A stretch of 64,000 nt of DNA from positions 5,374,830 through 5,438,829 of the forward strand of contig OU696593.1 of assembly GCA_916048095.2 (NCBI GenBank), read 5' to 3'. The DNA is from Sacculina carcini. Lineage: Eukaryota > Arthropoda > Thecostraca > Sacculinidae. Position numbers and translations under genes: made by a program. The notes beneath the pieces were generated by a model, which had not been told where the DNA came from, did no database searches, and was given only the letters and a program-made list of their open reading frames with translations. Within the stretch, counting starts at the first letter, position 1. Every line of letters starts with the position of its first letter. Shown here piece by piece: positions 607-26,430 of the stretch.

Positions 607-1381
607 AAATCATTTGCAAGCGACCCTTGCATATTTAACTACATTGAAGAGGTTAGTCAGTTAGGTGAGTCAGTTAAGCTTTCACAGTGCTGCAAAGGCA
701 GCACATTACATTAGAAAGCTAAACCTAACATAACCTAAAATCTATGAAAAATATAGAAACGTTTTTGTGGGTTTTCCAAGCGTTTTTTTTATAAATTAGC
801 GTTCTTAATGTTCTTGAATCCTTACACATTTAGCCTAGACGAAAAAACTCGGCCAACCGATCACGAACTTCGAGGTCTGTGAGTACGCCCAATTTCTCCT
901 GACATAAGCACGTTGTCACGGAAATTGGTGTGACCCATGATACAGGAGGACGGTGTAACTCAGTTTGATCTTCACTCGGTATCGGAATGTTCATCTCAAT
1001 CGATGTTGCTAAAGCTCGCCTCGAAAAGGTGGATGCTAATACACGATGTCGCCGACTGAGCTGATGAGATGGAATTGGATGAAAATTTAAAATTCGACGG
1101 ATACAATGACCTTTTCGAATGAGAATTATAAAAAACGTACGAGTTTTTATTAAGTCATTTATTTACGAGGAAACATTTAGACATATTTAGAAATAATTTC
1201 TTTCAACCGCAAGTGCCGATTGGTTGTTCATCACGAGTTTTCATTAGATAATGATTTACGAGGTCACTAGTATAGTAATTGTGTTAGATGCAGTCATTTC
1301 TGAACTGGATTTCAGCTGTGGAACATCGTTATCACACACCGTCAGTTCAGTTTGTGTTGAAGGTGAATACCTGAAAACAAC
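607..1381. other. Non-coding stretch upstream of the chimeric kinase gene
   Basis: No ORF with recognisable domains was found. The stretch is AT-rich and includes a TATA-like element at 1126-1136. It presumably holds the promoter and 5' UTR of the downstream gene. The 61-codon frame at 1251-1436 is out of frame with the kinase ORF and looks like chance. Confidence 0.5.
1126..1136 (+). promoter_or_regulatory. TATA-like element upstream of kinase ORF
   Basis: TTATAAAAAAC lies about 250 bp upstream of the ORF start. Position and composition suit a core promoter, but such AT words are common in this AT-rich DNA, so the call is tentative. Confidence 0.2.
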
Positions 1382-3535
1382 ATGCAAGATATGCGCAAAA
1401 AGATCACTATTGAGGAGGCGTTTGCCAAACACCTAGCCTGGACCGGTGTTACCGAACAGGCAGCAAGGCTATGCGTCCACTATAACAACACTTCAAAGTG
1501 GAGCATGTTTTCCAACTGGAAGAAGACCATTCGCCAGTGTCCCGCGTACTGTGTGCGCAATCTCAAAAAGTACTCGGCAAAAATGACCACCAAGAAGCCC
1601 AGCAAGGTTCTCGCCAAGTGTAGCAAGCATACCACTTTGCTGCAAAACCTGGAGATCTCGCTGCGTATGTACACCAGACGTTGGCTTCTGGATTTCGTGG
1701 AGCAGCAAGGAGTCATTGTTCTGCTCGACTACATGAATATCATACTATCGGCCAAAGAACGTCTTGACCAAGAAGAGGAGACCACCACTTGCTGTATGCC
1801 GATATTCTGCAGATCTAAACCAAACACCAATAAGTCCATTCTTATTAAAAATGCACACCAGGTGTTAAAACAATGTGTGCTTTGTCTCAAAGCAATAGTG
1901 GGAGATAAAATATCCATCTATAAAATAGTCCTGAATCGGGAAAATATCCTAGTGCTGGTACGTTGCGTCGACTTTATCGTACAAGAGTCTTCGGCAACGA
2001 TCATTATTGATCCAACAGCATCTACGATCATGGGCATTTTAAAAACGTTGGCGATAAACGACCCACATGTCCGCACTGTGCTTCAAGATTTTTGCTACAA
2101 TGATCTCTACACCCGTCAAATGGGCAGATTAAGTGATTTGGTCAATAATTTCGATGAGCCTGGACCTCAATCGCCATATATTGAGATGCAAGATCCTGAT
2201 ACCAAAACTGAAACGGTCAGTGCGGACCTGGTGCCTGCGGCGGCGGAGGCGGCCAGCTCAATTGAGGCGGCAACGTGTCCCACCAAGTATTCGCTGGCCG
2301 ATTTTGAGCTGATTAGCGTGATTGGACGCGGCCGCTACGGCAAAGTGATGATGGTGGAGCTGCGACGCACTCGGCGCGTGTACGCTATGAAGGTGATCAA
2401 GAAGGAGATGCTAACCAGCGACTTTCTCATCAAATCAGTAAAGATCGAAAAGAACGTCCTTCAGACAGTATCCAACCATCCGTTTCTGGTTGGACTGCAC
2501 TCGTGCTTTCAGAGTTTCAGTCGGCTGTTTTTTGTGATTGAGCTTGTGAGCGGTGGTGACCTCATGTTTCACCAGTATCGCCACGGCAAACTGCCCGAGG
2601 AGCACGTCAGGTTCTACTCGGCTGAGATTTGCATAGCGCTCAAATTTCTACACGAGAAGGGCATCATCCACCGTGACCTGAATCCGAAAAATGTGCTGAT
2701 CGATCACGAGGGTCATATCAAGCTGACGGACTACGGCATATGCAAGGTGGGAATTCGGCCGGGCGACAGGACGCTCACATTCTGCGGCACGCCCTGGTAC
2801 ATAGCACCGGAGATTCAGTTTGGCGAGGGTTACGATTTCAGTGTGGACTGGTGGGCGCTGGGTGTGCTCATGTACAAGATGATGACAAATTACTTTCCGT
2901 TCGAAATTTTAAATCATTCTAGCTGTACCACTGATACACCAGAGTTACTGCTGTTGCTGTCTATTACCCACAGGATCCTATGCCTTCCGCAGTCTTTGTC
3001 GGTGGAGACGCGCAACATCCTCAAGGGATTTATCGAGATAAACCCGCTGAAGCGACTGGGATGTCATTCGGATACCGGTATCCAGGACATACTGGAACAC
3101 GCGTTCTTTGAGAGCATTGACTGGCAGCTACTGGAGCAGAAAGAGCTGACACCGCCGTACAAGCCGTACATCAGGACCAAACGTGACCTGGCCAACTTTC
3201 CGCATCCGTTAACCCACCAACCGGTGTGGATGGCACCTAACAGACCAATCAATACACGGTTTCAATACATCGACCAGAGCCATTTTGACGGATTCGACTA
3301 TGTCAACCCGTCGCTGATATCCGATGAAGGTCATACACACATCGATAAAGGTCACACAGAAAGATGTTATACCACCGTTATTATTGAACCAAGCAGCGAT
3401 GCAGCCAGTGAAACGGTGACACCGGCCAGGACCAGTACCTCGGCCAGGACCAGAACGTACCCGGTGACATCGGCCGTGTTCAACATTGACAGGTCACATC
3501 TCGATCGCTGTGTCTCTTGTCCATCTAACATCTAA
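1382..3535 (+). CDS. Chimeric FMNL-type formin GBD/FH3 - atypical PKC kinase
   Basis: Single uninterrupted ORF of 717 residues. Residues ~8-123 resemble the FMNL/Frl formin GTPase-binding region: a KW after a helical segment, an AY..NLKKY-like stretch, LEISLRMYTRRW (90-101) and LLDYM (114-118). Residues ~155-255 look like a shortened FH3/armadillo segment (VLCLKAI). A low-complexity Ala/Glu linker (~281-298) leads into an aPKC-type kinase: Gly loop GRGRYG 315-320, Lys337, helix-C Glu356, HRD 430-432, Asn437, DYG 450-452 (the aPKC form of DFG), activation-loop Thr466, APE 475-477, and the aPKC C-tail with FDGFDY at 635-640. The catalytic-loop Lys is Asn434 and the turn-motif Thr is Ala618. The PB1, pseudosubstrate and C1 parts of aPKC and the FH1, FH2 and DAD of formins are absent. 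A Ser/Thr-rich tail (~651-717) exceeds the usual aPKC end. Family knowledge suggests direct Cdc42/Rac-type GTPase binding coupled to a kinase or pseudokinase; this is inference. ATG 1382 is the first in frame; ATG 1391 is an alternative start, and an upstream exon cannot be excluded. Confidence 0.85.
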   Translation: MQDMRKKITIEEAFAKHLAWTGVTEQAARLCVHYNNTSKWSMFSNWKKTIRQCPAYCVRNLKKYSAKMTTKKPSKVLAKCSKHTTLLQNLEISLRMYTRRWLLDFVEQQGVIVLLDYMNIILSAKERLDQEEETTTCCMPIFCRSKPNTNKSILIKNAHQVLKQCVLCLKAIVGDKISIYKIVLNRENILVLVRCVDFIVQESSATIIIDPTASTIMGILKTLAINDPHVRTVLQDFCYNDLYTRQMGRLSDLVNNFDEPGPQSPYIEMQDPDTKTETVSADLVPAAAEAASSIEAATCPTKYSLADFELISVIGRGRYGKVMMVELRRTRRVYAMKVIKKEMLTSDFLIKSVKIEKNVLQTVSNHPFLVGLHSCFQSFSRLFFVIELVSGGDLMFHQYRHGKLPEEHVRFYSAEICIALKFLHEKGIIHRDLNPKNVLIDHEGHIKLTDYGICKVGIRPGDRTLTFCGTPWYIAPEIQFGEGYDFSVDWWALGVLMYKMMTNYFPFEILNHSSCTTDTPELLLLLSITHRILCLPQSLSVETRNILKGFIEINPLKRLGCHSDTGIQDILEHAFFESIDWQLLEQKELTPPYKPYIRTKRDLANFPHPLTHQPVWMAPNRPINTRFQYIDQSHFDGFDYVNPSLISDEGHTHIDKGHTERCYTTVIIEPSSDAASETVTPARTSTSARTRTYPVTSAVFNIDRSHLDRCVSCPSNI

Positions 3536-4018
3536 CATCTAGCATCAGCGGTGTGCTTCAAGTGCAAATCAACGCAACAAATCTGACGGAAGACACGTCA
3601 CATTTCTGCTTCTCTCTCTATCTGTCCTACTCTCTCTATCGTTTGACGTAATCTCAAGCTGTGAAGACAGGGCGAGGAGATGAATGGTGGCAGCGGCTAT
3701 TATTGCCGTTTCCACAGTCCTAACATCTTTCCGAGAACAATTATGACGTCACAATGAGCTTGTGCACATTGAATATGACCAATTTTGATTGAGTGAATGT
3801 ATCATAAGTCAGACTGCTCAAGATTACGTTTGGTGAAATTATGGAAAAAAGTTTGCCCACTGATAACACAGAAAGCAGGCAACAATGAGTAGCTTGACAG
3901 CTATGATACCCCCGCCATATGAGCGGATAATACTTTCCTCTGGGAAAGGGGGACCTGTAGTCACAGGCCAAAATAATTACATTAGCAAGTAGTGTATTTA
4001 ACCTTTGTATTAGCTATT
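3536..4018. other. 3' flank of kinase gene
   Basis: Three near-repeats of TAACATCTA surround the stop codon. No poly(A) tract, canonical AATAAA or target-site duplication was seen that would mark a simple retrocopy end. No other gene is recognisable. Confidence 0.4.
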
Positions 4019-10703: not shown

Positions 10704-12377
10704 AATTCTAGCCCTTGCTCAATATCTGCTTCCTGTTTTTCATCCTTCTTTCGAGACAAGATTGCCACGGCCAAATCCAAATTACCTCCGTCCTCCCTTC
10801 CACTATCTTTTCCTTCTTCAAACACCTCTTTATCTTCTTTCTCTCCAATTTCTCCAGCCATGACTGCCAAATTTCTTAAAAAACTTCAATCCTCCAGGTG
10901 TCCATCTGATCCAATTAACTTCCGGGCTCTTTCCGACTCCATCATACTCTTTTCCCCATTTCTTACTCATCTGGCGAACACTTCTTTCCTCCACGGTACT
11001 TTCCTGGCCTCTAAACACGCTGTTATTTCTCCTATTCTTAAAAAACCTTGCCTGGATACTAGTACTCCATGTAGTTATAGGCCTATTTGCTTGCTTCCAC
11101 TACCTTCTAAGCTTCTGGAGGCTGCCATCCTTCCTCAACTCCGCCCTTGCATACTTTCTGCCCTAGACCCCCGTCAAACCGGTTTCGTTTCTAATCACTC
11201 AACTGAGACTCTCCTTCTATCTTTATTGAACGACATCTTCGCTTCCTTTTCCTCAGGCAACTCCGTAATATTCATCTCTCTAGATTTCTCTTCCGCCTTT
11301 GATCTCGTTGATCACTCGATTCTTTGTGAAGATCTTGCCCATATTGGTGTATCTTCTTCAGCTCTATCTCTTCTAACTTCCTATCTTACAAATCGTTCAT
11401 ATACAGTTCGCTGCAACTCCGAGTTTTCCTCTCCTCTTCCATTGGATTCCGGTGTCCCTCAAGGTTCTCTTCTCGGCCCTCTTCTGTTTAATCTGTATAT
11501 TTCATCCCTCTGCCCCATACTCCGGTCTTACCCCATATCGTTTCATATGTATGCAGACGATATACAGATTTACTTCCCCTTTTCCTCCTCAAAAATTGGT
11601 CTAATTTCTCAACTTCTATCACACATCGCTGCCTGGGCGTCCTCAAGAAATCTCCTTTTGAATCCTGAAAAAACTGAATATTTCTTATTTCACCCTCCCA
11701 GTATTGCTCCTTGTTCTGTCAACTTGCCTCTTTCATCTCATATTCGTAATATGGGTGTTGTTCTTGATCCCTCTCTAACATTCTCTCAGCATCTTTAAAA
11801 AATTACCCGCCTCTGTCGTTTCACCTTGCGCCAATTCTACCCGATCCGCTCTCATATTGATATTGCGTCTGCTCTCCTCTTAGTGAACTCGTTTATTTTT
11901 TCTCGTCTCGACTATTGTAATTCCTTATTCTTTCATCTTCCTAAGAAGTCCATTCACTCTCTTCAATCTATTATCAATCTTTCTTGTCGCTTCGTTCTTC
12001 GCCTTCCTCCTAAGACACCCACCTCCGCTCATATCCGAGAACTCGGCTGGCTGCCAGCTCTTTCAAGGATACAATATAAGCTGTGTTGTATTGTATATAA
12101 ACTCCTCCACTCATCTTCTCCTCCCTCGTACTTGCTCTCACTTCTTACCTTCTCTGATCGTCCTTTCAGCCGCCGTCCCGCACCTCTTGTTTGCCCTCCC
12201 GCCGACCACTTATCAAATTGGTCCGCGAAGTCTTTCTATTTTTCTGCCCCCCGATTATACAACTCTCTTCCTCCTCATATACTTCGTCATAAATCATATT
12301 CTTCCTTTTCCTCTGCGCTACATAAGTACCTGCTTTCTCTTCCGTCGCCGCTTACACCTCCTTATAGATTGCACTGA
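10704..12377 (+). pseudogene. LINE reverse transcriptase and C-terminal region
   Basis: In frame with the endonuclease: FFRDKI motif before the RT, YRPICLLPLPSKLLE, QTGF...STET, ISLDFSSAFDLVDH, SGVPQGSLLGPLLF, MYADDIQIYF (catalytic YADD) and LLLNPEKTE. A TAA at 11796-11798 interrupts the frame. The C-terminal part that follows (SRLDYCNSLF, LGWLPALSRIQYKLC) is typical of CR1/L2-type LINEs. The natural stop is at 12375-12377. Confidence 0.9.
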
Positions 12378-13732: not shown

Positions 13733-14010
13733 TTACTCCATCTCTTCGATTAGTCGGCGAGGTCTACGCCGTCGCCTGCCTGTTCTCCGAAGGGCGTGGT
13801 TGCTCTCGCTGTTGTCGTTCAACGAGGTCGACTGTTGAGGACGGCTCGTCTCTGGTGCGGGGCGGTCGCCACGCGGTGGCATGACTAGCGCGAACCTGCG
13901 TCGAAGGAACCGCCGGTTGCGCACTAAGACCCGTCCGCTCTGCAATCGTACAGAGTAGCGTCGATGAGGCGCGACCTCGACCCCGCTGCTTCGCGCGACC
14001 CCGCTGCTTC
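13733..14010 (-). pseudogene. Integrase C-terminal remnant of gypsy element
   Basis: In a frame different from pol, the minus strand encodes YSVRLQSGRVLVRNRRFLRR, a typical chromatin-side tail of gypsy integrases, followed by an Arg-rich C-terminus. The integrase catalytic core that should precede it is missing. A 16-18-bp tandem duplication (GAAGCAGCGGGGTCG twice, about 13979-14014) sits at the junction and probably marks the deletion. Confidence 0.75.
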
Positions 14011-16292
14011 GTCTTCTCTTGACCCATGTGACCGTCGTGTAGTCGCTGAAGGATGACTTTGCGTGCCCCCCGAGGCACCACCAGGCGTCTTCCGTAGACC
14101 ACCAGGCCGTCATCAACTGATAGCTGTTCCCTCACGTTCCAGAAAGACGGCAACTCCGTCGGCGTACCATGTTTGTGATCTGGGAAGCCTTTCTGAACTA
14201 TCTCTTTCAGCTTCTGATACTCGACGTCACTCGCAGCTTCTTTCCGTATGTCTTGCAGGTGTAAGTCAGCGCCCGTTGATTCAGCTTCCTGTACGACGAT
14301 AGACAGCACGTTCTCGCCTCCATCTTCGCCTACATCATCCCCCTCCACCGGCTGGTCTACGGGACTGCGCGAGAGGGCATCAGCAGCACTGTATTCTGTG
14401 CCTTTTATCCAGTGAGCACAGAAAGGACCGACTTCGTCAATTTTTAGCTTCAATCGCTGAAGACGAGGATTTTCGAGGTCACATGACAATTTGTTATTGA
14501 GAATTGGAACCAAAGGACGGTGGTCGACAAATACATCGAACAGTTTCATACCGTAAAGAAACAGCCGGCACTTTTTGAATGCCCACGCCACCGCAGTGAG
14601 TTCGATTTCGATCGCAGCATATCGCGACTCGGCATCGGTGATAAATCTGGATCCAGCTTGCACGAGTCTCCATGATTCGTCAGATTGCTGCTGCTGAAGC
14701 AGGAAACCAACGCCATTCAACCTGCTGGCGTCCGTATAGAGCCTCGTCGGTCTGGTAGCATCAAAAAACGCCAACGTGCCGGGTGTGGACAAGGCAGACT
14801 TTGCCTGCTCAAACGCTGCAGTGTGCTGGACTTCCCAGAGGAATTCGTTCTTCTGACTGAGGAGTGGACGTAGCCGCATGAGAGCCCTCGATACACGATC
14901 ACTGAAGCTGGCAATCTGGTTCGCCAGTCCGAAGAATCCGCGCAGTTCTGACAAATTCTGCGGTGTGCTGAATTTCACGATCGCATTTGTTAGCGATGGA
15001 TCGGGGCGGTATCCGTCTGCAGACAGGATGAAACCAGCGAATTTGACGGATTCCTGCATGTATTGCACCTTGTTGCGGTTTAGTGAGACCTGGTTCTCAC
15101 GGCAGCGTTGTAGCAAGGCACGGGTTCTTTCTGCAAGTTCAGAAGGGTTGCTTCCGTACACCACGACGTCATCTACCAGACGCTGAATGCCCTGTAAGCC
15201 ATCAAAGCATTGGGTCATGCGCCGTTCGTAGTGTTCTGAGATCGAGCACACGCCATACGGGGCTCTGCGAAACATGAAGCGTCCAAAGGGGGTTATGAAG
15301 GTTGTCAGTGGTTGGCTGCTAGGCGCTAGTGGACACTGATGATATCCCTTTAGGCAGTCAAATACAGCAAACCACCTCGCGTTAGTAGCTTCAATGGATG
15401 ATACACATTCCATGGGTGTGCCACTCTGGTATAACTCTCTACGAACAGATTTGTTGAGACGTGATAAGTCCACGCACAAACGAATGCCTTCTCCGGATCG
15501 TTTCTTGGTCACCACTATTGGGGCACACCAATCAGTGGGCTCAGCGACTGGGCATATAATACCGTTGTCGACCAATTTGTCGAGTTCCGCTCGAAGAGGT
15601 TCTCGCAATGAGAACGGCACTCTGCGGGGCGCTTTCATGGAGAAAGGCTCAGCGCCCTCCCGCAGGTGGATCTGGTAATCTTCGCCAGGGAGCACCTTTA
15701 CCACTTCGTCGAAGACGTCGGAGAACTCGACCATTATTGAGAGACTAGCGTTGTCTGGTGACGCCGGCAGGGCATTGACGTGAGCACCGAATTCTGCATT
15801 GCGTACTAAGGGCTGCGCACGATTGCCGGCGGTGACCTCTGATGTGGTCGAAGGGCTTCTGCACTTGTTTTCCTCGACTCTCAACAATTGAGCGGGATAC
15901 GCTGGAGGTAGAACCATCAACGATCGAGCCACGTCCCACGATAGAAGAAGACCAGATGCGCCTTTCAGAATGTGAGCCTGTGTATCAACTACAGCTTCAC
16001 CGAGCTTGACTCTGATTGACAGCATACCGTGGGATTTCATGGAGTGTCCATCGGCTGCTCGCGGCATCACTGACGGCGGCAAGAGGTTGTCGATATGACC
16101 ACCCACCTGGTGCAGAAAGTCGACTCCACCAACAGTAATGTCAGCCCCACTATCCGGGAGTGCCATAACGTGAGAGCCTTGACCATCCTGCTCTACCCAC
16201 ACATTGATACGCGGTGCGCGCTTGTCCGACATAGTGGCTACTACGGCTGCGTGACTATCGTCCGCGGTTTTTTCATTTTCCGCGATCGGCAC
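13764..16292 (-). CDS. Gypsy Pol: protease - RT - RNase H, truncated integrase
   Basis: Open for 842 residues. Aspartic protease motif DSGAD at 47-51; RT ~235-420 with FDCLKGYHQ (Asp312), FGRFMFRRAPYG and LVDD (372-375, in place of YxDD); RNase H ~515-640 with YTDAS (Asp521), Glu562/564, FVDHRPL (Asp590) and AADALSR (Asp638). Near residue 752 LHDGHMGQEK starts the integrase zinc finger, after which the frame is out of register. The last ~85 residues are therefore not genuine protein. It overlaps gag by about 50 bp in a different frame, consistent with ribosomal frameshifting. It copies element RNA into DNA in cytoplasmic particles. Confidence 0.9.
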   Translation of the reverse strand: MPIAENEKTADDSHAAVVATMSDKRAPRINVWVEQDGQGSHVMALPDSGADITVGGVDFLHQVGGHIDNLLPPSVMPRAADGHSMKSHGMLSIRVKLGEAVVDTQAHILKGASGLLLSWDVARSLMVLPPAYPAQLLRVEENKCRSPSTTSEVTAGNRAQPLVRNAEFGAHVNALPASPDNASLSIMVEFSDVFDEVVKVLPGEDYQIHLREGAEPFSMKAPRRVPFSLREPLRAELDKLVDNGIICPVAEPTDWCAPIVVTKKRSGEGIRLCVDLSRLNKSVRRELYQSGTPMECVSSIEATNARWFAVFDCLKGYHQCPLAPSSQPLTTFITPFGRFMFRRAPYGVCSISEHYERRMTQCFDGLQGIQRLVDDVVVYGSNPSELAERTRALLQRCRENQVSLNRNKVQYMQESVKFAGFILSADGYRPDPSLTNAIVKFSTPQNLSELRGFFGLANQIASFSDRVSRALMRLRPLLSQKNEFLWEVQHTAAFEQAKSALSTPGTLAFFDATRPTRLYTDASRLNGVGFLLQQQQSDESWRLVQAGSRFITDAESRYAAIEIELTAVAWAFKKCRLFLYGMKLFDVFVDHRPLVPILNNKLSCDLENPRLQRLKLKIDEVGPFCAHWIKGTEYSAADALSRSPVDQPVEGDDVGEDGGENVLSIVVQEAESTGADLHLQDIRKEAASDVEYQKLKEIVQKGFPDHKHGTPTELPSFWNVREQLSVDDGLVVYGRRLVVPRGARKVILQRLHDGHMGQEKTKQRGRAKQRGRGRASSTLLCTIAERTGLSAQPAVPSTQVRASHATAWRPPRTRDEPSSTVDLVERQQREQPRPSENRQATA

Positions 16293-17020
16293 ATTGAGGC
16301 AAAGTGACCAAGCTTTTTACAAATGTGACATGTCTTGCCATCTGCAGGACAGCGCCCCCTGTGTGCGCGTCCACATTTCTGACATTTTGACGGTTTATCA
16401 CTCGGCTGATATTTCTTGCCGGCAGCGCAAGCTGCGGCATCACTATCGTGTGCCTTACCGACAATGACAGTGGTGTCTCTCTCAGCGGCCTCGTGAATTC
16501 GACATATCTCGATGGCCTTGTCCAAAGTGAGTTTCTTCTCTGAGCAGAGACGCTTGATGACTGCATGGTCTCTCAAGCCAATGACAATTCGGTCGCGGAT
16601 CAAACTGTCCCTGCACGAATCACAGAAATTGCAAGACGAGCTGAAGTCACGTAAAGAAACGAAAAAATCATCGAACAGTTCCCCTTGCATCTGCGATCGC
16701 ATATTGAAATTGCGGCGCTCCACCACTTCATTAATCTGACCCTGTGCATAAGCTTCCAGAGCTTTCAGTACCTTTCCAGGCTGCACTGAATCGGCGTCAG
16801 ACAAATCCAAGTTTTGCACTACGCGCAATGTTTCATCGCTCATCATTGATCTGAGTACCGCCATTTGAATGAATTTATCAGCATGTAAAAGACCTGATAA
16901 AAGAACGTAATCATCGTACCGCGATTTCCACAATGAGAATCCACTTTTATCCACTGAAAGGTTCAGTTTTGGTGGTGGGTTAACTTTTCCCGCCCACCCC
17001 TGTGATTGCGATTGAGCCAA
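16241..17020 (-). CDS. Gypsy Gag (capsid/nucleocapsid)
   Basis: 259 residues. A capsid-like helical region (residues ~25-170; FSLWKSRYDDYV, FDDFFVSLRDFSSSC) is followed by a nucleocapsid with Cys/His clusters CQKCGRAHRGRC and CHICKKLGHFASMC, the latter a canonical CCHC knuckle. The N-terminal PPKLNLS and the general plan resemble Mag-type gypsy elements. The ORF is intact and just precedes pol on the minus strand. It packages element RNA. Confidence 0.88.
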   Translation of the reverse strand: MAQSQSQGWAGKVNPPPKLNLSVDKSGFSLWKSRYDDYVLLSGLLHADKFIQMAVLRSMMSDETLRVVQNLDLSDADSVQPGKVLKALEAYAQGQINEVVERRNFNMRSQMQGELFDDFFVSLRDFSSSCNFCDSCRDSLIRDRIVIGLRDHAVIKRLCSEKKLTLDKAIEICRIHEAAERDTTVIVGKAHDSDAAACAAGKKYQPSDKPSKCQKCGRAHRGRCPADGKTCHICKKLGHFASMCRSRKMKKPRTIVTQP

Positions 17021-20498: not shown

Positions 20499-22316
20499 TC
20501 ATCTCATCCTTTTCCTTATCGACCAGAATCTCGCTAGTGTTTCCTTCGTGTCCTGGATGTAGTCCTTGCAGAATAATACTTCTCCGATTACTTCGTGGTC
20601 TTCTCCTTTATATGGTTGTACTAGTATTGGGTGTTTTACTCGCTCTTCCTGATATGCTGGGCACCATAGTATGAAATGCTCGAGGTTTTCCACTTCGTAT
20701 CCGCAACATTCACATTCCATGCTCTCTCCTTTGAATCTCTTTCTGTCGTTCAGATTCAAGTTATTTGTGCGGCACTTCAGTAGCAGAATAGATGCTGGTC
20801 TATTGTCATACACCTTTTCTTGTCCTCCGAGTTCCTCTCTCCAATCGCTATATATTCTCAAGCTGGATCTTTCCTTGACTTCTTCCTTCCACATTTGTGT
20901 GTCCCACTTTCTTATCGTTTCTCGAATACTCTTTTTATCTGCGTTTTCCGTATTTTTTGCATTCACTCCGATTGACTTAAGTTCGTCTCTAATTCCATTC
21001 AGTATTCCTTTCTCTCGATTTTCCTTTTGTACTTCTTAAATTCTTTTGATGATTTCGTTGTTTTCCTTGTTGCAATACGTCAAAAACTTCCATTTTCCTT
21101 CCAATATTCTGGTCCTCATCGACGATGCTCCAATTTCGCCTCTCAATGCACTCACCTGTGTGTAACTCGGCGCTCCTAGAATGCTCCTGTATACTCCGTT
21201 TTCAATTCTCTGTAGTTTCTCAATCTCTTGTTTCCTGATATCCACGACGTTGATTCCATAGAGTATTGCCGGAAGAGCGATTGACTTCCAGAAGGTTTTT
21301 CCTATCAATATTTTTGAACAGCTCTTCCTGATCACAGGGTAAGTCAGATACGCCAGTTTTCTCGCCTTTTCTATCATGGCCTTTCTTTGTTCCCGGAAAC
21401 AGTTTCTGCCCTCGTTTATGATTAATCCCAAGTATTTCATTGACTCTGCCACCTCTATATTTCTCATCTGTTCCGGCTTTGCTCTTGCGTTGAATGCCAG
21501 GATTTTGCATTTGTTCTTGTTTGTTTCCAGGCCGTATCTACCGCTGATTTCTTCTACTTTGGTGATCATTTCTATCGCTTCTTCTTCGGTTGTAGCTAGC
21601 AGCAATGCATCATCGGCAAAAAACAGGCATGGTATTTTCAGCTCTTCATCTCTGAATCCTTTCCCCAATTTTTCTATTTCTTCAATGATCTCGAGCGTGA
21701 CCAATTTGAACAACGAGGTGGACGCTGTGCAGCCTTGTCTTACTCCGCTTGTGATCTTCATAGTGCTCTTTCTTTTCCCAATTTCAATTTGTGTCGAGTC
21801 TTCTTGGTACACTTCTGCAATAATATTGATCACGTCCGGGTGCTGCTTGAATCTCTTGCATGTTTCAATAATCTCTTCTCTTTTCAGACTGTCATATGCC
21901 TTGCAGTAGTCGATCGATATGAGGAATAGCTGTTTCTTTTGTTTGTATGTCCGGTCGATGCAGTATTTCATTATCACGAAGTTGTTCTCAATCCTTGCCT
22001 TCTCTGTAAATCCTCCTTGAAGATCGTTCCCCATATTGTTGTTCCTGATGTGGTTCTCTATGTAGTCTCTCACTACACTCATCATCAATTTGTAACACTG
22101 GTTCGCAACAGTGATGGGTCTCAATTCATGTGGCTGAGGTTTCTTTGTCTTCGGCAGCATTATGGTTTTCGTTTTTCTCCAATCTTCTGGAATTTGCCCG
22201 GAGGTCATTGTTTCTTGTAAGCACTGCACTATCTCGTCGACTAATAATTTACTCTTCGATATACATTTTACTATTTCCGGTTTTATTCCGTCATTTCCAG
22301 ACACACATTTCCAGAC
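20499..22316 (-). pseudogene. LINE reverse transcriptase and CCHC domain
   Basis: Minus strand: PEDWRKTKTIMLPKTKK, LRPITVANQCYKLMMS, LISIDYCKAYDSL, SGVRQGCTASTSLF, LFFADDALLL (catalytic FADD) and LETNKNKCKILAF. An in-frame TAA at 21036-21038 follows NEIIKRI, and the same frame continues to a C-terminal CCHC motif CECCGYEVENLEHF..WC (CX2CX8HX4C) and the final stop at 20499. The first codons are fused in frame to the gypsy integrase by chance. Clade not assigned. Confidence 0.88.
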
Positions 22317-23345
22317 AATGGAACAACCCTTCCTGGCTGCTACCGTTTTCACAGTACGATGACATCGTTCAGTGATACCGTTGCCCGAAGGCCGGTATGC
22401 GCATCTGAAGTGCAAAAGTATGTTCCAATCAGAAACAAACGACCGGAACTCTCGACTCCGGAAAGCTGTATCATTATCTAATAACAATTGTTCCGGTGCG
22501 CCACGCTCAAAAAAGATAGCCTCCAATTGTTGTCTCACACACGTCGAGTCCTGCCGCCTCAGGCACCGCCATATGCTGTATCTCGAAGGACCGTGATCAA
22601 TCACCGTCAAATAATGTTGTCCTCCATAGTGTGTTATATCAACTCCCAGTCGCTGCCACGTTTTCTCCACGCTGAGTTTACCTGCCCTCCACTTCACTGG
22701 TGCAGGATCTATTGATTTACAGGTCTGACACTGGGAGACAACTTGAGCCACTTGCCTGCGATTGGCGGCCAACTTTGCTCTCCTCACAAAATAGTAAGTA
22801 CGGCGAACGCCGGGACGACCTGTTTCGTGATGAATTCTTGACACATCAGACAATACATCATTCCCGGCACAAGCAGCTGTAACAGGCAAACACGTTTGTA
22901 GTGGTGCGCGTTCGTTGTTATTGTTGCGCAGCCATGATTGTGGAACTCTACTCAAAATATCGGCTCTATTGTCTGCCGACTTTACCAAATGTACAAGCAC
23001 CGATAAACCATATTCTTCCACAATTAATTGGAACGTTGAAATCCGCCTCCGAATCAGTAGCTCACCTGACGCTTTGGTTCGCAGTCTGGCTTTCCCTGAC
23101 ACAGCATCATTAAGCCAGTGGTACACCGAACTCGAATCAGTCATAAGGTGAATCCTTTTCATCTGCCAGGCAACTGCTAAGCTCATACCTTTTAGCTCAG
23201 CGTCTAATTCGGCCATGTTAATATGGGCGTCCTGGTTCTGACTCAGCCAAGAAGAATCTTCAATTATGTCGCCATCAACCTCAAGAGCGACACCAAGCGC
23301 TAACGAACTGGCATCCACCCAGAGAGTAGCTTCATAATTTTTCAC
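22317..23345 (-). pseudogene. RNase H and integrase N-terminal/core of second gypsy
   Basis: RNase H motifs LWVDASS, AELDAEL, LMTDSSSVYHWL and NRADILSR; integrase zinc finger H-H (IHHETGRPGVRR) with CQTC; integrase core residues in GVDITHYGG, LLLDNDTAF and NGITERCHRTVK (D, D, E). The frame is separated from the RT by one in-frame TGA (23349-23351) and runs into the nested LINE after GCSI. The ATG at 23345 is incidental. Confidence 0.88.
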
Positions 23346-23348
23346 TTG

Positions 23349-24999: not shown

Positions 25000-26430
25000 T
25001 AACTCTTGATGGTTATATCGAACTATCGACCAGTTTCTACCATACCCTGGCTCTCCAAACTTGTTGAAATGGCCATGTATGACCAAGTATACGCTCACCT
25101 GGAGGAAAACAATGTCTTTCTTCACCAGCAATCTGGTTTCAGACAGAACCATTCGACTGAGACATCTCTGCTGTATGCCTACAACTTTTTACTCGAGCGC
25201 AGCTTAGAACACAGAAATGTCATACTCATACAACTGGACTTTTCCGCCGCATTCGACACAGTGTGGCATGCAATCTTGATTAATGACCTTGAGCGTTGTG
25301 GCGTTTCTGGATTCGCAATTGATCTGCTGCGTGATTACTTGAGTGAGAGGACACAGTCAGTTATTGTAAAAGATTGTCACAGCTCAAACTTCCCTCTTGT
25401 GAATGGTGTGCCTCAAGGATCTGTTCTCGGACCGCTTTTATTCAATGTGTACCTATCCTCGATTAAATTTGCTCTACAGGATTTTCATGAAATCGATTAC
25501 CAAATATTTGCCGATGATATCCAAATATTTTTCACATATGATGATGCGTGCCACGCGAACCAACTTACTGCTAGCATATTACAGCGTGTTGAATCTTGGG
25601 CCACTAGCCGTAGACTGCTGCTAAATCCCGACAAAACAACATTTTTACCTGTTTCGCTCAGCAAAATTTCCTCTTTTGCTCCCAGCTCTTTCAACTTTTT
25701 GTTTTCTGAATCCGCAAGAAATTTGGGTGTCATCTTTGATAATCGGCTGTCATTCATCCATCACATTTCGGATCTTATCAAAATTTGCTGCTACTATATT
25801 CGCCAAATTTACTCAATTCGGAAATATATTTCTAACTCGTCGGCCCTCAAATTAGTAAACGCACTGGTGATGTCTCGAATTATGTATTGTTGTTCGCTGT
25901 ACCTGAATCTGCCCCATAGAGTGCTTCGCAAGATACAGCGACTCATCAACAGGTCATGCCATCTAGTGTTCCACCTGCCAGCGAGGACTCATATAACTAA
26001 ACATCTCATACAGCTCTAGTGGCTACCTGTGAAGGCTCTGTCGGAATATCGAACTGTGTGCATTGTGTTTCAAGATGTCAAGTTGAGATCGCCTCGCTAT
26101 ATAGCTGACATGCTTGAGGCTCACTCATCGTCGCGTACTCTTCGATCTGACGGCCTTCAATTATTGACGGTGCCGAAGTTTCCTAGCAATGACAGCCGTT
26201 ACAACAGATGTTTTCGCTATGTAGCGCCGCGAATTTTTAACACGCTTCCTTTGCACGTCAGAACGTCTCCTACATTCCCTATATTTAAATCACGAGCGAA
26301 AAAGTATTTCCTGTCAATGTGCTATGACTCGTCACTTAATTTGATCAAACCGGAGTATGCAGTCTAGTAATATGTTGTTTTAGTATTATTGTATTGTGCG
26401 AATGATCATGTTAAAATGTCATATGTGTGT
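25000..26430 (+). mobile_element. CR1/L2-like LINE, 5'-truncated
   Basis: Begins abruptly in the RT (VISNYRPVST) next to the gypsy stub and ends at a TG/TA microsatellite. Related in type to the LINE at 8257-12791 but clearly a different family by sequence. Endonuclease and 5' part absent. Confidence 0.85.
25006..26367 (+). pseudogene. CR1/L2-like reverse transcriptase
   Basis: NYRPVSTIPWLSKLVE, QSGFRQNHSTETSLL, IQLDFSAAFDTVWH, NGVPQGSVLGPLLF, IFADDIQIFF (FADD) and LLLNPDKT are the successive RT motifs. An in-frame TAG at 26017-26019 falls just before WLPVKALSEYR, a conserved point in the C-terminal region (LxWLPV), so the stop is a mutation. The frame continues to 26367. Confidence 0.9.

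Follow-up and report, generated by a model that had tools for sequence, protein, structure and literature searches.

An amplified intronless gene family in Sacculina carcini joins an FMNL-type GTPase-binding domain to a kinase of atypical PKC type

The 64,000-nucleotide stretch of the Sacculina carcini genome analyzed here (the window) contains one copy of an amplified intronless gene family, in which a GTPase-binding domain (GBD) of the FMNL formin type is joined to the part of a canonical atypical PKC (aPKC) that reaches from the hinge to the C-terminus. After a single fusion, as found for the 39 kinase domains that were tested, the fused gene has spread over many contigs. We infer that the encoded protein is an effector kinase of Rho-family GTPases. 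The reading that we favor, and hold to be probable as a whole, thus comprises one GBD-aPKC fusion with an intronless formin as donor of the GBD, its subsequent amplification, and a role as Rho-effector kinase. An earlier note on this DNA had proposed the fusion; both of its domains were recovered, but it had missed that the gene belongs to a large, amplified family whose chains contain one, two or three kinases. No report of a GBD-aPKC kinase architecture was found among the best-ranked papers of a literature search, as far as the openings of their abstracts tell.

The arrangement represents a new wiring of two classic parts of cytoskeleton and polarity, and, provided that the binding end is still functional, Rho GTPases would control the kinase directly. 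Moreover, one genome retains the parent aPKC, a presumed canonical FMNL, a possible intermediate in the form of intronless GBD-FH1-FH2 genes, and fusions with one, two and three kinases. Because parents, possible intermediate and outcome occur side by side, the birth of a class of Rho-effector kinases becomes directly testable, and many natural variants are available to ask which residues set the choice of GTPase. The family would also be an example of a formin GBD used by itself to target enzymes of unrelated kinds.

Domain structure of the window gene

The gene is a single exon running from ATG to TAA (717 amino acids plus stop), and its two halves are joined without a frame break (Table 1). 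The N-terminal half matches Drf_GBD (PF06371) with an E value of 1.6e-12 and 47.7 bits versus a cut-off of 30.1, and the best PDB relatives of residues 1-303 are the N-termini of FMNL2 (6.3e-8) and FMNL1 (4.3e-6), which bears out the FMNL-like N-terminal region of the earlier note; the motifs it had cited, LEISLRMYTRRW and LLDYM, were located at residues 90-101 and 114-118. A profile of 15 GBD sequences from the genome likewise has FMNL1 (1.4e-15) and FMNL2 (2.1e-14) as its best PDB matches. Whereas Drf_GBD was thus found above its cut-off, the second formin profile named in that note, Drf_FH3, gave no match, and FH2, PB1, C1 and C2 models were also absent from the window protein in the Pfam search (E <= 1, with HMMER filters dropping most matches above about 0.1). 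Judged by these matches, the product would be neither an aPKC, with no PB1 or C1 match, nor a formin, with no FH2 match.

The kinase domain was recognized by Pfam (Pkinase, E 1e-59). In the PDB it is most similar to human PKC iota, over residues 254-649 (E 3.5e-131), with PKC beta (4.8e-95) and AKT ranking behind, an order that points to a kinase of aPKC type. Pfam gave no Pkinase_C match in the window copy, NCBIfam yielded distant bacterial kinase models alone, all below their cut-offs, and a pseudosubstrate was not seen by eye. Most copies outside the window subfamily stop straight after ...NPLLI/M/K.

Table 1. Features of the fusion gene within the window.
Feature	Position	Strand	Basis
Conserved 5' flank, putative promoter/5'UTR	1139..1381	+	blastn extents and alignment of 20 upstream regions; function inferred
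717-aa ORF: FMNL-type GBD, linker, aPKC-type kinase	1382..3535	+	ORF and Pfam
Drf_GBD of FMNL type, residues 7-197	1400..1972	+	Pfam; FMNL1/FMNL2 best PDB relatives
aPKC-derived hinge, residues 273-308 (TETVSADLVPAA...TKYSLADFELIS)	2198..2305	+	matches L049 hinge by eye
Ser/Thr kinase domain, residues 309-576	2306..3109	+	Pfam Pkinase; PKC iota best PDB match
Asn434 in HRDLN, replacing the catalytic-loop Lys	2681..2683	+	sole such change among 34 kinase rows
Thr466, activation-loop Thr, retained	2777..2779	+	kinase row alignment
AGC C-terminal tail, residues 577-649	3110..3328	+	PKC iota alignment to residue 649
Ala618 at the turn-motif Thr position	3233..3235	+	VWMAPNR versus VQLTPDD in PKC iota
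Hydrophobic motif FDGFDY, acidic residue as in aPKC	3284..3301	+	PKC iota and kinase row alignments
Additional C-terminal extension in the window subfamily	3329..3535	+	alignment A1 and frames of relatives

An artefact of assembly or annotation that joins two unrelated genes at about 2160-2290 is vanishingly improbable in view of the uninterrupted frame, the many loci that show this order of the halves across the junction, and the chains with repeated kinases. The assembly join in this region, which the earlier note had raised against its own claim, is excluded, because numerous independent loci have the two halves in a single frame. The one frame and the repeated order also rule out read-through between adjacent genes.

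Amplification in the genome

The genome from which the window comes, 264.4 Mb in 43 contigs, was searched for further copies. The window protein gave at least 140 matches, and by our own reading of the match table at least 60 loci have GBD and kinase paired, 61 of 578 candidates having been scored in both cases. For the 84-residue kinase core of the parent aPKC, 150 of 380 candidates were scored, giving no fewer than 150 places, one of which is the parent itself; hence, these kinase counts are lower bounds. The search with Drf_GBD, in which all 147 of 147 candidates were scored, led to 135 places that were grouped into 132 frames: at least 78 with a kinase, 11 with Peptidase_C48, one with FH2 and 42 in which no partner was seen. 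In this tally, L053 is entered by its nominal place and many frames are known by place and length only; the 42 partnerless frames include four pieces of intron-bearing formins and also L055 (C20:2479440), though its cut-short kinase was read. Some fusion relatives fall below the Drf_GBD cut-off of 30.1, for example L054 with 27.8 bits.

One long frame with both signatures is present in 19 of the 20 loci that were read, the exception being the broken L020. The number of kinases per chain was taken from 26 fusion frames with complete kinases, including four C4 loci and three from a later search. One kinase is found in 18 of these frames, two in L022, L024 and L052, and three in L017, L018, L021, L025 and L054, which makes 8/26 frames with two or three units and gives open chains of up to 2249 aa. 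The sister of the window copy, L010, is 97% identical and lies 15.6 kb upstream, outside the window.

This distribution might also reflect neutral or selfish amplification, i.e. segmental duplication or hitch-hiking with repeats without any common cellular job. Tandem arrays and near-identical copies (L017 and L021 share 98.4% over 7.1 kb), surroundings rich in retroelements, and broken copies such as L020 and the split frames at C21:4774355 and C19:7115090 fit this view, and so does a 100-bp stretch about 330 bp past the stop codon (window 3866-3966), which recurs close to the stop at seven loci from other subfamilies with 88-94% identity, a value above that of the coding sequence, and might represent a conserved 3' element or a short repeat. 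However, by blastn the long homology between subfamilies takes in the ORF up to the stop codon and, ahead of it, roughly 240 bp of flank, the frames stay open even in the longest chain, and dN/dS is well under 1 across the family, so that we regard an amplification of this kind as quite improbable. A mobile element carrying the gene is unsupported, the long inter-subfamily homology starting at about -240 bp and ending with the stop codon, although the 100-bp stretch recurs beyond it.

The GBD was also found with other partners. It shares a single frame of 631-759 aa with an Ulp1/SENP-type protease in 11 frames on C22, C18, C9, C6 and C24, of which the C22 frame (L056, C22:1880200-1882300) was read, as the sole Ulp1 fusion, and confirmed by Pfam. 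A 1329-aa frame on C9 (L051:337-4326, C9:7484300-7488800) has two GBDs confirmed by Pfam, a very long Pro/Ser-rich tail and no kinase, and two other C9 frames of 1267 and 996 aa show two GBD matches each.

Parent genes and origin of the fusion

The parent of the kinase half is represented by a canonical aPKC on C8 (L049), with PB1 (1.1e-14), C1 (6e-14) and kinase domains recognized by Pfam and a pseudosubstrate-like stretch seen by eye between PB1 and C1. Its C1, hinge and kinase form one frame of 505 aa (409 aa read), and the fusion linker agrees by eye with this hinge; tblastn of relatives places the start of second-half homology at window residue 274, and L052 keeps a longer parental hinge, down to the end of C1. 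Since hinge and kinase of the parent are encoded in one frame, retroposition of the kinase half is not needed to explain the fusion.

In trees that leave out the stubs L028_k1 and L053_k1/k2, the cut-short kinase of L055, and L020, every one of the 39 kinase domains from fusions falls into a single clade versus L049 and human PKC iota (support 100/99). Hence, one fusion followed by amplification is indicated, and many separate fusions are ruled out for these 39 domains. The 930-aa frame at C9:6659865-6662219, which lies outside that test, combines a GBD (at 6659865) with a kinase core (at 6661968) that has 94% identity to the canonical aPKC; it is the least diverged fusion seen and could be an ancestral member or a second fusion. 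The dS values of 0.45-0.86 between fusion kinases and the parent aPKC suggest that the copies are old.

As to the other half, introns interrupt the gene on C20 that is presumed to be the canonical FMNL. One of its exons, at C20:8159024, encodes 33 aa that are 61% identical to human FMNL2; pieces of FH2 situated 24-30 kb further on presumably belong to the same gene. The GBD half of the fusion is without these introns, while the kinase half is uninformative on intron loss. Two intronless formins with GBD-FH1-FH2 order, L031 on C16 and L032 on C25, are below the Drf_GBD cut-off (20.6 and 26.9 bits), and their GBDs are 54% and 28% identical to that of the window. About 180 bp of 5' flank is common to L031 and fusion copies, according to blastn and the alignment of 20 upstream regions. 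The GBD tree, which was calculated without L052-L055, does not put L031 outside the fusions (support 80/0); because it fails to place L031 firmly, this gene is to be seen as a surviving relative of the donor and not as the proven donor. The GBD of the fusion together with its 5' flank would have come from an intronless FMNL formin of this kind. Six C-terminal FH2 fragments with equal scores lie in tandem at C21:5171527-5205956, and retroelement coding sequence adjoins one of them (L037) by eye.

Putative positions for GTPase contact

The N-terminal part of the window protein comprises the GBD and the first armadillo-like part only, the similarity to FMNL ending near residue 186 in the comparison with the GBD profile and that to mDia1 at residue 201. 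Repeats 4-5 of FMNL2, which contact the insert helix of Cdc42 according to an excerpt of PMC4432619, were not recognisable in the window protein. The same excerpt names K73, E111, H222, R261, E311 and D360 as FMNL2 residues contacting Cdc42. The first two correspond to Arg51 and Glu91 of the window protein and are invariant in 13/13 rows of alignment A1, while the H222 column of alignment A2 (15 rows) contains His in 8, Lys in 2, Arg in 2, Gln in 2 and Asp in 1, the window copy having Lys. At R261 the window copy presumably has Ser, as read from a hand alignment to FMNL2. Since the similarity ends near residue 186, E311 and D360 in repeats 4-5 are beyond the alignable part. With contact positions partly kept, binding of a Rho GTPase by the window GBD is plausible, but it may differ from FMNL2 in how tightly or how selectively it binds Cdc42, or may no longer bind it. 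The GBD profile A2 (window 1382-2290) also weakly matches a chain of a double-strand telomeric DNA-binding protein (8u8m, E 0.017), probably by chance.

Kinase residues and selection

The residue table of the kinase half has 34 rows, corresponding to 33 distinct units, because the N-lobe stub L028_k1 runs into the L028_k2 unit; L020, with no open frame of 400 aa, is absent from it. The catalytic residues are widely kept, namely the VAIK Lys in 33/34 and the alpha-C Glu, the HRD Asp and the DFG Asp each in 34/34 rows, and the window copy has all four of them. Thr466, the activation-loop Thr of PDK1 type, is likewise present there. However, DYG is changed to DYH in 7/34 rows, the turn-motif Thr is absent in 8/9 rows of the window subfamily, the activation-loop Thr is altered in 5/5 C4 rows (TLKICGTP, TSNFCGTP), and HRDLN occurs in the window copy alone (1/34 rows), its sister L010 having HRDLK. 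HRDLN, the lost turn-motif Thr and DYH argue that some copies of the family would be weak or dead kinases. The full aPKC-type kinase of the earlier note therefore holds with respect to PKC iota as best match, whereas the catalytic-loop Lys and the turn-motif Thr are missing in the window copy, and to call it an intact polarity kinase would be an overstatement.

Median pairwise dN/dS is 0.37 for the GBD (236 pairs) and 0.42 for the kinase (544 pairs, L028_k1 included), the pairs not being independent; those with dS <= 0.05 or not computable are left out of these medians, and for the GBD also those with L031 or L032. The fusion kinases have values of 0.16-0.37 versus the parent aPKC, with 0.35 for the window kinase. 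Values this far below 1 family-wide point to purifying selection. The kinase of the window subfamily shows 0.80 (bootstrap 0.56-1.11) versus 0.48, 0.34 and 0.35 in three other groups, which is compatible with relaxed constraint; the GBD of the window clade has 0.48 (0.30-0.75).

Hence, it might be that the kinase of the window subfamily is decaying and that its protein acts as a dominant-negative competitor, which occupies a GTPase, or substrates of the kinase without phosphorylating them. The high dN/dS of this subfamily, its missing turn-motif Thr, the HRDLN of the window copy and the altered activation loops of the C4 rows speak for such competitors. On the other hand, the window copy retains the core Lys, Glu and both Asp, L010 retains the catalytic-loop Lys, the dN/dS of the window kinase versus its parent is low, and the frames remain open, so that we consider this explanation possible, if on the unlikely side.

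Comparison with known systems and proposed function

Canonical aPKC reaches Cdc42 via PB1 and Par6. The fusion shares with aPKC (PKC iota/zeta, L049) the kinase domain, the activation-loop Thr, the acidic hydrophobic motif and the hinge sequence, and 173/252 residues of the window kinase are identical to L049. Unlike aPKC with its PB1 and C1, however, the window protein has a formin GBD, HRDLN and Ala in the turn motif, and its relatives have up to three kinases. With the FMNL formins (FMNL1-3; C20, L031, L032) it has in common the type of GBD with Glu and Arg at the E111 and K73 positions, but the FH3 and FH2 models find no match, a kinase replaces FH1-FH2, and the gene is intronless. In its working the fusion would most resemble PKN/PRK, Rho-effector kinases of PKC type that are controlled through an N-terminus binding the GTPase (PMC13218154, PMC4733087). 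PKN differs in having HR1 coiled coils, whereas the fusion has a formin GBD, an aPKC-type kinase, no C2 match and a different family size. By analogy to PKN, direct control of the kinase by the GTPase would be the likeliest mode of action.

Returning to the preferred reading of a single fusion amplified into Rho-effector kinases, the following mechanism can be proposed. The GBD would bind an active Rho GTPase, with a Cdc42-like one as the likeliest, and the bound GTPase would bring the kinase to its site and may relieve inhibition. The aPKC kinase would then act without targeting by Par6/PB1 and without the brake formed by C1 and pseudosubstrate, because these parts are missing from the fusion. 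Given the regulatory sites missing from the window subfamily and, in the window copy, the replaced catalytic-loop Lys, this particular copy may not be fully active and might be a weak or competing (dominant-negative) kinase. Rho GTPases were not co-expanded in the genome (17 exon-like matches at E <= 1e-8, 41/41 candidates scored); hence, many effectors would share few GTPases.

In this regard, a wider interpretation might be considered, although it appears doubtful. The intronless FMNL GBD would be a portable targeting module that was joined at least twice to unrelated enzymes, the aPKC kinase and the Ulp1-type protease, in addition to its ancestral partner FH1-FH2, giving rise to a very large class of Rho effectors. 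A genetic conflict still under way, for example in the male germline and via the shared Rho/Cdc42 signal, would then account for the amplification, the multi-kinase chains and the decay of kinases. The mouse t-complex responder offers an analogue of the proposed conflict over a shared Rho/Cdc42 signal, albeit with SMOK, an unrelated kinase without a GBD. SMOK and its dominant-negative form Tcr act downstream of Rho regulators in sperm, according to an excerpt of PMC6394906, and are mentioned as analogy for the competitor or conflict reading, not as evidence.

Genomic surroundings

TTAGG arrays are plentiful in the genome and TTAGG[G/C] is absent, a pattern in keeping with an arthropod, and a search of the assembly for COX1 found none; many interstitial TTAGG arrays occur between 4.3 and 10.9 Mb of contig C1. 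Long arrays of tandem repeats, whose units measure about 341, 404 and 460 bp, recur across the right half of the window (28815-62324). Between 10704 and 26016, the window contains retroelement ORFs with RVT_1 at 10704-11795, 13767-16316, 21039-23348 and 25003-26016, together with integrase and CCHC ORFs.
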